From Methanoregula sp. PtaB.Bin085 (GTDB lineage: Archaea > Halobacteriota > Methanomicrobia > Methanomicrobiales > Methanospirillaceae): DNA of 64,000 nucleotides. Every line of letters starts with the position of its first letter. Within the stretch, counting starts at the first letter, position 1. The notes beneath the pieces are model-generated. The model ran no database searches and was not told where the DNA came from. It worked only from the letters and a program-made list of their open reading frames with translations. Both the position numbers and the translations under genes were made by a program. The stretch lies in the NCBI RefSeq assembly GCF_002067035.1, contig NZ_MVQB01000027.1, forward strand, positions 124,001 through 188,000, written 5' to 3'. Below are positions 27,575 through 34,194 of the stretch, in pieces.

Positions 27575-27955
27575 GTGGAACAGTACAGCAGGGGTGATGT
27601 CCTCCTCGCATCGGTTGCGCTTGACGACCGGGCACCTCCCAAGGTCCGGCCGGTCGTGGTAATCGGGACAGATGTGCCGGGTCGGATCCTCATCTGCCCG
27701 GTCAGCAGCAGGCCTCCCTTCGATGCGCCCTGCCTGCCGCTGGCCCTTGACGACTTTGCAGCCGGAGGTCTGGAAATGTTCGGCGAGAGCTATGTCATGA
27801 CGTCACGGGTTCTCACCATCAGGAATGCGGCCGTGGCAGGAAAGAAAGGCCGGCTTTCTCCTGAATCGCTCGCTGAGATTTCTGCACATGTGCCGGTTGT
27901 TTCCCCGGCAGGTTCGCAGCCGGGGCAGAAAAGGCCCGGCCGGCAGACCCGCTGA
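27575..27955 (+). CDS. MazF/PemK-like protein
   Basis: A 126-residue protein starting with GTG. Residues 5-60 match the MazF/PemK fold: YSRGDVLLASV, then KVRPVVVIGTD and ILICPVSSRP. MazF-family toxins are sequence-specific endoribonucleases, usually beside an antitoxin gene. No short antitoxin-like ORF directly precedes or follows it here; the neighbours are an AN1 finger gene (divergent) and the mptG fusion. It may therefore be an orphan, or a non-toxic relative of the type often seen in methanogens. The C-terminus is Pro/Gly/Arg-rich. Confidence 0.75.
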   Translation: MEQYSRGDVLLASVALDDRAPPKVRPVVVIGTDVPGRILICPVSSRPPFDAPCLPLALDDFAAGGLEMFGESYVMTSRVLTIRNAAVAGKKGRLSPESLAEISAHVPVVSPAGSQPGQKRPGRQTR

Positions 27956-28035: not shown

Positions 28036-29568
28036 ATGGATATCGCACGGGCGATTGCCGAAATGGAGATGCAGGTCGGCCGGATCTCTCCGGTCCAGAA
28101 GTTCCTGCTCGGCACCGACGGATCGGTGACGCAGATCCTGGAATCGATTACCGGGAAAAAGGTGATTATCCGGACACTGGTCCAGAATGTCATCCCCGCC
28201 GATACAGAGGCGGCAGGTATCCTGAATGTTTCCGTGGGCGATCCCGTCAACTACCGGGTGGTGGAGATCCGCACAGAAGAGAACAACGAGGTACTCATCT
28301 ACGCGATCTCGCATACCCCCGTCAACCGGTTGTCTCCTGAGTTCCGGGACGACCTGATGAAGGCCGATATCCCCATCGGCAGGATCATCAGCAGGCACCA
28401 TATCGAAGCCCGGCGGGAGATCCTGTCAGCCCGCGTCACGCCGGCCTCGGAAGAGATGGGCCGGATTTTCGGGATCTGCAAAAACGAGCCGCTTCTTTCC
28501 CGGCAGTACCAGATCATCCATGCAGAAAAACCGCTCATGTTCATCGAGGAACAGTTCCCGTACAACCGTTTCCTCGATTCGCGGCGGGTCATCGTCCGGA
28601 CGCCCTCCCGCATCCATGTCACGCTCATCGACCTGCACGGCGGATCCGGGCGGGTGGACGGAGGGATCGGCATCACGCTCGACGAGCCCGGCGTCCTCCT
28701 CGAGGCAGAACTCGCACCCGCGCTCTCTGTCAGCGGGGGAGACCCGGCTGTCCAGGACCGGGTCCGCGGGATCGTTATGGATGTGCTGCGGAAGCTCGGC
28801 GCAGGCGGGAACGTAGCGATCACGATCCGGAGCTTCTACCCCTCGCACGTCGGTCTCGGGAGCGGTTCGCAGCTTGCCCTTGCCGTTGCCCGGGCAATTG
28901 CCGAACTCCACGGCCGGCACCTGCCGGTGAAAGAGCTTGCAAAGATCGTGGGCCGTGGCGGGACGAGCGGTATCGGGACGGCCGCGTTCGAGTATGGCGG
29001 GTTCATCGTGGACGGCGGCCACCGGTTCGGGGCTGGCGGGGAGAAGACCGATTTCCGCCCGTCCGCCGCATCGCGGGGCGTCAGCCCGCCACCCGTGATC
29101 GCCCGGCACGATTTCCCCGCGGACTGGCGCATCCTGCTTGCAATCCCCAACGTGCCGGCAGGAGCAAGCGGTGGCAGGGAAGTGGATATCTTCCGTGATA
29201 ACTGCCCGGTCCCGCTCGACGAGGTCCGCCAGTTGTCCCACGAAATCCTGATGAGGATGCTCCCCGGGATCGCTTCACGGGATCTCGACCTGTTCGGTTC
29301 GTCGATCAATGCCGTCCAGGCCCTCGGGTTCAAGAGGGTGGAGATCGCCCACCAGCCCCCGCAGGTGACCGGCCTTCCTGATATCCTGCGGAACGCCGGG
29401 GCTGCCGGTGCCGGCCTCTCCTCGTTCGGCCCGGCAGTGTATGCAGTCGGGGACACCGGCATGACGGCGATTGAACAGGCGGCACAATCGTTCATGAATG
29501 AGCACAGCGGGGGCACGACACTCATCACCACTGCGCGGAACAGCGGGGCGGTTGTGAGGGTGGCGTGA
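28036..29568 (+). CDS. mptG: Chorismate lyase-like (DUF98) fused to beta-RFAP synthase
   Basis: A 510-residue fusion. Residues about 10-178 are a DUF98/chorismate pyruvate-lyase-like domain: GTDGSVTQILE, VNYRVVEIRT, YAISHTPVNRL, DIPIGRII and FIEEQFP. From about residue 188, the GHMP-superfamily beta-ribofuranosylaminobenzene 5'-phosphate synthase follows: TPSRIHVTLIDLHGGSGRVDG, VGLGSGSQLALAVARAIAELHG and GTAAFEYGGFIVDGG. The second part attaches PRPP to a benzoate precursor in methanopterin synthesis. DUF98 enzymes make 4-hydroxybenzoate, a substrate of the second half, so two consecutive steps appear joined. The ATG at 28036 has no clear ribosome site. Confidence 0.9.
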   Translation: MDIARAIAEMEMQVGRISPVQKFLLGTDGSVTQILESITGKKVIIRTLVQNVIPADTEAAGILNVSVGDPVNYRVVEIRTEENNEVLIYAISHTPVNRLSPEFRDDLMKADIPIGRIISRHHIEARREILSARVTPASEEMGRIFGICKNEPLLSRQYQIIHAEKPLMFIEEQFPYNRFLDSRRVIVRTPSRIHVTLIDLHGGSGRVDGGIGITLDEPGVLLEAELAPALSVSGGDPAVQDRVRGIVMDVLRKLGAGGNVAITIRSFYPSHVGLGSGSQLALAVARAIAELHGRHLPVKELAKIVGRGGTSGIGTAAFEYGGFIVDGGHRFGAGGEKTDFRPSAASRGVSPPPVIARHDFPADWRILLAIPNVPAGASGGREVDIFRDNCPVPLDEVRQLSHEILMRMLPGIASRDLDLFGSSINAVQALGFKRVEIAHQPPQVTGLPDILRNAGAAGAGLSSFGPAVYAVGDTGMTAIEQAAQSFMNEHSGGTTLITTARNSGAVVRVA

Positions 29569-32388: not shown

Positions 32389-34194
32389 ATGGGCGATCTG
32401 AAAGATATTGCTACCATCGCGCGATGGGAAGTGAAGAAGTCGTTCTCCGTGATGGGAAGAAACGTCCTGCCGCTCGCCATCGTCCTCTTCGTCCTGCTCG
32501 TCCTCGTCACCGGCTTCACCACCCAGAGCGGGCTGCACCTGCAGGACGGCATGTACGAGGTCGGGGTGAACGATCCCGCCCTTGCAGGGCTCATTGCCGG
32601 CGACCCCCGGTTCAGCGTGTACCAGATCTCCGCAGCCAGCCCGGACTGGCGGGGCAATTCCTTCGACCTCATCGTCATCAACGGCGAGGTCTTTTACCGG
32701 GGCACCGAGAAAAGCAAATCCGCCCTCAAGACGCTGGAGCGCAATTACGGGAAGTACGTGAACAGCGTGTATAACGCCGAGGAGGATCTCTTCGCCGCGT
32801 ACCCGCTCTGGATCGATGTCCAGCCCCAGAAGAGCGAACTCGATTTCCTTGCAACCCAGAGCGGGCAGTCGATCACTGCAGCCCCGGGCAGGCAGGCTCC
32901 CGTCCCGGAAGGCCCGGTTGCCGAGATCCCGACGCCATCGCCAACCCTCGCGTTCACCCGGGACGAGCTCCGGCAGGAACTGACGAAGACGAGCTCCGCA
33001 AACCCGCAGATCTCGCGGTACACGGAGATCCTGACGACAGACAACGCGATGGGCAATTTCAAGACCCCGTCCCAGATGTCGCCCCCCCTGCCGTTCGATT
33101 CCATCATCCTGATCTTCGTCTTCATCTTCCCGCTCTACTTCACCTCCCAGTTCTTCATGATGAGCATCATGAACGAGCGGATCGAGCGCAAGGGCGAGAT
33201 CCTCCTCTCCATGCCGGTAAAAACCGGCTCCATCATCCTTGGCAAGATGCTCCCGTACTTCCTCGGGATGCTTGCCATCTGCACGGGGCTCACGGTCTGG
33301 ATCGGCGCCCCGTTCATCATCCTCCTCCCGCTTGTCCCGGTCATCTTCTTCTTCCTTGCCAACGCGCTCATCATCGGCATGCTCTCGCGGAGCTTCAAGG
33401 AGCTCTCCTTCATATCCATCTTCTTCTCGACGGTCGCAACTTCGTATCTCTTCTTCCCGAGCATCTTTGCCAATGTCCACGTCATCAGTTTCATCTCGCC
33501 CCTGACGCTGATTGTCCTCTCCCTGCAGGGAACCGCGTGGACGGCGACTGACTATCTCTATTCCACCTCGCTCTTCTGGCTCACGAGCGCTGTGATATTC
33601 TTTGTCGCGGCACGGAACTTCAAAGAGGAGCGCCTCTTCTCGGAGAAGAACCTCGTGACCCGGATGCGGGAGTTCCTCTCCGAGGTCCTGTCGCGGAAAC
33701 GCCCGTTCCTCTCGCTCTTCCTCCTGACCGGGTTCTCGATACCGTTCATCTTCATGGTGCAGATGATGTGCCTCGTGCTCTTCTTCAACCTGCCCATGCC
33801 CTACTCGCTCGTGCTCCTCCTCCTCTTTGCGGCACTCATCGAGGAGATCGCCAAAGGGATCGGGATCTACACGATCTATGCCCGCGACGCTGCGTTCTTC
33901 ACATGGAAGAACGTCGTGTATGCCTGCGCTGCGACCGCTATCGGGTTCCTCGTCGGGGAGAAACTCCTGCTGTTCGTCACCCTCGCCCAGATCACGGAAT
34001 CGGTCTTCGGCAGCATCCTCTTCCTCTCCCTCGGGGTCCTCTGGATGCCGCTCCTCCTGCATTTCGCCGGGGTGCTCATCGTGACTGCGTGCCTGAAGCT
34101 GGGCGGCCGGGGCTGGTTTGCACCGGGGCTCGCGCTCGCCATGGTCGTGCACTGCCTGTATAACCTCTACTTCATCCTGGGGTGGCTCTCATGA
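32389..34194 (+). CDS. ABC-2 permease fused to PrsW-like intramembrane metalloprotease domain
   Basis: A 601-residue membrane protein. Residues 1-410 are a NatB-like ABC-2 permease: one N-terminal helix (about 20-42), a 190-residue external domain, then about six helices. From about 440, a second membrane domain shows PrsW-type motifs in order: E485-E486-x2-K489, F520-x3-E524 (GFLVGEKLLLF), H558 (LLLHFAG) and H588 (VVHCLYN). These are the catalytic motifs of PrsW/type II CAAX-related proteases. The start ATG at 32389 is 9 codons before TIARWEVKKSF. The stop overlaps the next permease gene by the ATGA arrangement. Protease activity is inferred from motifs. Confidence 0.85.
   Translation: MGDLKDIATIARWEVKKSFSVMGRNVLPLAIVLFVLLVLVTGFTTQSGLHLQDGMYEVGVNDPALAGLIAGDPRFSVYQISAASPDWRGNSFDLIVINGEVFYRGTEKSKSALKTLERNYGKYVNSVYNAEEDLFAAYPLWIDVQPQKSELDFLATQSGQSITAAPGRQAPVPEGPVAEIPTPSPTLAFTRDELRQELTKTSSANPQISRYTEILTTDNAMGNFKTPSQMSPPLPFDSIILIFVFIFPLYFTSQFFMMSIMNERIERKGEILLSMPVKTGSIILGKMLPYFLGMLAICTGLTVWIGAPFIILLPLVPVIFFFLANALIIGMLSRSFKELSFISIFFSTVATSYLFFPSIFANVHVISFISPLTLIVLSLQGTAWTATDYLYSTSLFWLTSAVIFFVAARNFKEERLFSEKNLVTRMREFLSEVLSRKRPFLSLFLLTGFSIPFIFMVQMMCLVLFFNLPMPYSLVLLLLFAALIEEIAKGIGIYTIYARDAAFFTWKNVVYACAATAIGFLVGEKLLLFVTLAQITESVFGSILFLSLGVLWMPLLLHFAGVLIVTACLKLGGRGWFAPGLALAMVVHCLYNLYFILGWLS

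Follow-up and report, generated by a model that had tools for sequence, protein, structure and literature searches.

A chorismate lyase-beta-RFAP synthase fusion, a probable bifunctional methanopterin enzyme, and its repeated absence among Methanomicrobiales

The natural benzoate acceptor of beta-RFAP synthase is disputed, the candidates being pABA and 4-hydroxybenzoate, and work by White from 2011 reportedly favors the latter. Within a stretch of 64,000 nucleotides from Methanoregula sp. PtaB.Bin085, referred to here as the window, a single gene joins a DUF98 chorismate lyase-like domain to a beta-RFAP synthase, and this raises the question whether one polypeptide carries out two consecutive steps of methanopterin biosynthesis and what such a link implies for the acceptor. 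A description of a lyase-synthase fusion was not found in the literature searched, while subscription papers and database annotations, which lay outside the scope of this search, may mention it. In the available part of PMC6787355, pABA is treated as the substrate and neither chorismate nor the strings "hydroxybenzo" or "fus" occur; the fusion is likewise unmentioned in the available parts of PMC3087415, PMC8305020, PMC9982363 and PMC9012536.

Architecture and signature residues of the fused gene

An uninterrupted single frame of 510 codons spans positions 28036-29568 of the plus strand of the window, and its predicted start is supported by congeners, the proteins of which begin with MDIA or MDIR at the equivalent position. 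The preliminary description had read this frame as a fusion and had named both families, and in both respects it was borne out by Pfam and NCBIfam domains that exceed their cut-offs within the one ORF. Residues 25-176 match the Rv2949c-like chorismate pyruvate-lyase family PF01947 with 95.9 bits (gathering cut-off 22), the GHMP N and C domains lie C-terminal to it, and residues 186-506 match NF040726, the beta-RFAP synthase equivalog, with 387.5 bits (cut-off 328). The solved structure closest in sequence is AF1396 (2NWI, Pfam DUF98) in the case of the N-terminal half and ForT in that of the C-terminal half. At an E-value threshold of 0.1, a second match to PF01947 was not found in the window genome, and a scan for promoters and terminators around the fused gene yielded nothing reliable. 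The features of the gene are as follows:

28036..29568, plus strand: predicted bifunctional ORF, DUF98 chorismate lyase fused to beta-RFAP synthase, 510 aa plus stop
28078..28572, plus strand: DUF98/Rv2949c-like chorismate pyruvate-lyase domain, about residues 15-179 (PF01947 and 2NWI fold match)
28255..28257, plus strand: Arg74, invariant lyase residue (90/90 fused and 26/26 stand-alone rows)
28549..28551, plus strand: Glu172, lyase residue (90/90 fused and 25/26 stand-alone rows, the exception being the relic in genome G328 described below)
28573..28587, plus strand: interdomain linker, residues 180-184 (5 residues in 86/90 fused rows)
28588..29565, plus strand: beta-RFAP synthase domain of GHMP fold, about residues 185-510 (NF040726; ForT match)
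28630..28632, plus strand: Asp199, counterpart of D19 of MTH0830 (fused rows: D 86/90, E 4/90; stand-alone rows: D 28/28)
28651..28653, plus strand: Arg206, counterpart of R26 of MTH0830, the benzoate-binding Arg (90/90 fused and 28/28 stand-alone rows)
28846..28866, plus strand: phosphate-binding loop H-V-G-L-G-S-G, residues 271-277, from the alignment

In the neighborhood, an ORF named by eye as PemK/MazF-like lies just upstream of the fused gene (window 27575-27955, plus strand). Further downstream, an ORF of 601 aa (window 32389-34194, plus strand) appears by eye to join an ABC-2 type permease to a PrsW/CPBP-like membrane protease half, and homologs of it sit near the fused gene in congeners.

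An AlphaFold2 model of the whole chain reached a mean pLDDT of 93.3 and a pTM of 0.91, on the basis of which we predict one well-ordered two-domain protein with the two domains in a fixed relative position. In structure comparison of the model, the N-terminal half agreed with 2NWI at a TM-score of 0.95 by target length and an rmsd of 1.4 (Z 23.9, 159 residues, 48% identity) and the C-terminal half with ForT at Z 39.2 over 323 residues (30% identity); the best 50 rows of this comparison were filled by GHMP folds and did not include UbiC.

With regard to known relatives, the protein shares its whole C-terminal half, including the D19 and R26 counterparts and the phosphate loop, with the MptG beta-RFAP synthases (MTH0830, MJ1427, AF2089; NF040726/TIGR00144), which are stand-alone enzymes of about 310-370 aa, whereas the window protein adds a lyase domain at the N terminus. 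The whole N-terminal half is shared, in fold as well as in signature residues, with PF01947 lyases such as AF1396 (2NWI), which elsewhere in the phylum stand alone with about 160-220 aa. The formycin C-riboside synthase ForT (6YQQ, 8AOZ, 8AP0), a bacterial antibiotic enzyme acting on another acceptor, has the fold of the C-terminal half and belongs to the same PRPP-binding family but lacks a lyase domain. UbiC-type chorismate lyases (PF04345), which catalyze the same chorismate lyase reaction with an Arg and a Glu in the active site, constitute a Pfam family distinct from that of the window lyase.

We aligned 144 proteins, i.e., 90 fused, 28 synthase-only and 26 lyase-only rows. Missing catalytic residues in DUF98, named in the preliminary description as the observation that would speak against its reading, were not encountered: all 90 fusions agree at 32 lyase positions, which include R74, E124, R126, R127, R156 and E172, and 27 of these 32 are also at least 90% conserved across the 26 stand-alone lyases, each of the six named residues being present in 25-26 of the 26 rows. 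By analogy with UbiC, we take R74 to be the probable Arg that binds the substrate carboxylate and E172 to be the probable counterpart of the active-site Glu. A decayed lyase half can be rejected on the basis of these invariant residues, and to judge from the alignment the lyase half of the fusions is under the same constraint as the stand-alone lyases. For the synthase half, the phosphate-binding motif and the roles of D19 and R26 have been described for MTH0830, where R26 governs the binding of benzoate according to mutagenesis, its exchange for Lys increasing the KM for pABA about tenfold (PMC6787355).

Sequence and structural model thus characterized, the ORF very probably encodes a bifunctional methanopterin enzyme that would convert chorismate and PRPP to 4-(beta-D-ribofuranosyl)phenol 5'-phosphate via 4-hydroxybenzoate. 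The N-terminal DUF98 domain would cleave chorismate to 4-hydroxybenzoate and pyruvate, and the C-terminal RFAP synthase domain would use 4-hydroxybenzoate and PRPP to form 4-(beta-D-ribofuranosyl)phenol 5'-phosphate, CO2 and PPi, such that 4-hydroxybenzoate rather than pABA would be the physiological acceptor. Proximity of the domains may be of benefit by holding back or re-binding the intermediate, and channeling by the fused protein is possible.

Distribution of fused and split genes

Fusion is the usual form of the two genes in Methanomicrobiales and Methanotrichaceae. A search with the fused alignment retrieved 80 named loci in other genomes, each of which matches most of both halves, and their titles refer to Methanoregula, Methanoculleus, Methanogenium, Methanocalculus, Methanolinea, Methanothrix/Methanosaeta and unclassified kin. 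A survey of 392 genomes of the phylum detected PF01947 in 208 genomes and NF040726 in 349 (E 1e-40 or better), with scores over the cut-off in 252, and found fusions (open frames of about 500 aa or more) in families f1-f6, which make up the order of the window organism, in f22, which corresponds to Methanotrichaceae by its placement among named rows in the tree, and in f12. The survey of the order comprised 120 Methanomicrobiales genomes, 98 of them near-complete. Both domains are present in 80 of the 120, encoded in one open frame (about 500 aa or more) in 77 cases and spread over two contigs in the other three. Chance or an assembly artefact in one genome was rejected as an explanation, since the fusion occurs in named genomes of two lineages and, in one frame, in 77/80 genomes of the order that hold both domains. 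Viral carriage was considered as well; 59 pattern matches were obtained in viral contigs, none of which is a relative.

Where the genes are split, the check suggested in the preliminary description, whether a separate DUF98 gene lies beside mptG, is positive for one family and negative elsewhere. In family f7, 6/6 loci (L011, L013, L014, L019, L027, L031) have a DUF98 gene immediately after the synthase gene, the two being adjacent, on the same strand and in reversed order compared to the fusion. On the other hand, the genes are far apart in all seven other split genomes that are readable on one contig (G388, G117, G034, G024, G022, G075, G289).

The canonical synthase, termed A in the following, was found in 89 and DUF98 in 82 of the 120 genomes of the order. 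A occurs without a DUF98 match in nine genomes, one of which is fragmentary while eight belong to a single genus (f3/g21) that we infer to be a Methanocorpusculum-type group. Several further families of the phylum likewise have synthases without DUF98, so RFAP synthase is not universally accompanied by DUF98. The reverse situation, DUF98 without A, is restricted to two of the 82 genomes, namely G416, where the gene is cut by a contig end, and G328, which carries a degenerate relic. In addition, two to three RFAP synthase matches per genome were noted in family f14 and in some genomes of f8 (G009, G019, G029, G039; G157, G231).

In a quick tree of RFAP synthases, the fused synthase domains of Methanomicrobiales and Methanotrichaceae formed one clade (support 98) and the f12 fusions fell apart from the other fusions. 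As neither a single clade of all fusions (p-AU 0.374) nor a grouping of the unfused Methanocorpusculum-type genes with the Methanomicrobiales fusions (p-AU 0.314) was rejected, we claim neither independent fusions nor a foreign origin. The stand-alone synthases of the Methanocorpusculum-type genus, which lack DUF98 (four loci, L068-L071, from G136, G334, G340 and G217), were placed apart from the fusions of the order in the same tree.

Loss of the fused gene and a possible role of paralog B

No match to A was obtained in 25 of the 98 near-complete genomes. In G096 and G416, fragments of the gene are present at contig ends, and of the 23 genomes that remain, 22 are also devoid of DUF98. In Methanomicrobiales, the fused gene behaves as a self-contained, optional one-gene cassette, the loss of which removes both steps together. 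Its frequent absence shows that a methanogen of the order can do without it, and this dispensability is new.

Where loci were inspected, the losses look real. The near-twins G384 and G305 have almost identical B proteins (see below) and share the flanking DNA, with about 30-60 bases at the empty site in G384 vs. about 1.8 kb including the fused gene in G305. In G328, a congener of the window organism assembled in one contig, the equivalent site holds the lyase half only:

L065:5540-6076 = G328:C1:817539-818075, minus strand: relic of the fused gene, lyase half only

This relic ends at the domain junction, has Lys at the position of Glu172 and nests inside the Methanoregula fusions in the tree (support 99); the gene upstream of it is a homolog of the PemK/MazF-like ORF of the window (56% over 105 aa). 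The synthase half was not detected elsewhere in G328 by tblastn, which matched B only. A decayed lyase is seen only in the absence of the synthase half, which would be expected if the lyase product feeds its partner. Masked sequence as the cause of missing genes was rejected for the stretches read, no N being present in 97 loci (including that of G328) or in the empty-site loci of G384. When presence and absence of A were mapped on the tree of B proteins, which is not a species tree and does not separate gain by transfer from loss, 14 changes were counted, at least 10 of which are forced by well-supported branches.

The second protein, paralog B, is encoded outside the window in the same genome:

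G000:C14:54274-55350 (L003:1363-2439): paralog B, about 360 aa

Where measured, B shares roughly 25-30% identity with the synthase half, and hhalign indicated homology over the full length (probability 99.7%, E 1.2e-26, 305 columns). It occurs in 115/120 genomes of the order, including 96 of the 98 near-complete ones, the two near-complete misses being G096 and G416, i.e., those that hold pieces of A. All 23 near-complete genomes without A keep B. The pattern is reversed in Methanotrichaceae, where A is present in 9/9 and B in 5/9 of the genomes examined. B retains the D19-type Asp and the phosphate loop and has a highly conserved N-terminal motif, RGGDLD. At the position of R26, on the other hand, 60 B sequences vary between R, H, M, T and Q in the hhalign alignment, and with 99.8 bits B stays far below the NF040726 cut-off of 328 and also below the cut-offs of the other NCBIfam RFAP models. 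Because of this unconserved position and the low score, the sequence of B does not justify calling it an RFAP synthase. Identification by fold was rejected, too, as ForT is the top match of B with other GHMP enzymes scoring close behind. By eye, B is located downstream of flavin oxidoreductase-, family-2 glycosyltransferase- and DUF2148-like genes in two genomes, in one of which a thioesterase-like gene is also nearby.

As a hypothesis resting on the pattern of A and B, B may work as an RFAP synthase and is a candidate for a second aryl-riboside synthase. We tentatively propose, as a scenario that is possible rather than probable, that Methanomicrobiales have two routes to the aryl-riboside of methanopterin, one via the fused cassette and one via B without DUF98 and with a benzoate from another source, that B as a backup would allow repeated loss of the cassette, and that some methanogens of the order (23/98) would rely on B only. 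Another interpretation assigns methanopterin's riboside to B alone in every member of the order and leaves the fused enzyme of Methanomicrobiales with an accessory role in forming a different aryl-riboside. The near-universal occurrence of B, the patchiness of A (73/98 near-complete genomes) and the 23 genomes that have B without A would fit, but the characterized RFAP synthases are of the A type (PMC6787355), all Methanotrichaceae examined possess A and four of the nine do so without B, such that A alone suffices there, and both the score of B against NF040726 and its unconserved counterpart of R206 argue in the same direction; we therefore regard this interpretation as unlikely.

The benzoate acceptor and implications for methanogens

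The preliminary description had taken the fusion as joining two consecutive steps and as support for 4-hydroxybenzoate as the natural acceptor. This part stands with respect to the conserved residues, the pairing of the genes in f7 and the absence of PabB over its curated cut-off from all 120 genomes of the order, while a strict pairing of lyase and synthase does not, given the nine genomes that have A without DUF98 and the many relatives without a fused gene. UbiC (PF04345) was tried as a replacement lyase in genomes lacking DUF98 and was not found over the cut-off in any of the 120 genomes. With neither PabB nor UbiC over the cut-off, DUF98 is the only recognized source of benzoate in the order. 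PabB was rejected as a marker of a pABA route, as its uniform absence does not separate genomes with the cassette from those without it. In a separate observation, a TrpE/PabB-like match at E 1e-30 is absent from 28/120 genomes of the order, 18 of them near-complete and one (G252) a single contig; these organisms are possibly tryptophan auxotrophs.

In these archaea 4-hydroxybenzoate is not known to serve any further purpose, and this weighs against the idea that the synthase half uses pABA while the fused lyase meets another need for 4-hydroxybenzoate, the fusion serving regulation instead of consecutive steps. Such a division is in line with the description of pABA as substrate (PMC6787355) and with the existence of genomes that have the synthase without DUF98; it gains nothing in this order, where PabB is missing, and both the fusion itself and the gene pairs in f7 point to consecutive steps, which renders it quite improbable. 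The KM of a characterized RFAP synthase for pABA is poor (3.9 mM; PMC6787355), which fits another natural acceptor. A match to UTRA (PF07702, residues 40-179) just above its cut-off (26.8 vs. 23.8 bits) would speak for the DUF98 half being a non-catalytic UTRA-like sensor or a structural lid that modulates the synthase half on binding of 4-hydroxybenzoate or chorismate. This is highly improbable, as the UTRA match overlaps the far stronger one to PF01947, the signature residues shared with stand-alone lyases are invariant in the fusions with Glu172 changed only in the truncated relic, and Pfam detects no DNA-binding domain in the ORF.

A link within one polypeptide that two methanogen lineages maintain together with all signature residues constitutes strong comparative evidence for 4-hydroxybenzoate as acceptor, and a single purified protein could allow both steps as well as channeling to be tested in one assay. 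Beyond what the preliminary description had noticed, the fusion is ordinary in two lineages, its loss removes both steps, and methanogens without it exist. RFAP synthase has been proposed as an inhibitor target for cutting methane emission (PMC6787355), and the near-complete methanogen genomes that have no detectable A and only a divergent paralog bear on this idea. The same organisms leave a hole in a cofactor pathway at a step that was thought to be mapped. If the route via B proved true, the choice between pABA and 4-hydroxybenzoate as acceptor would be a lineage-specific and directly testable trait.
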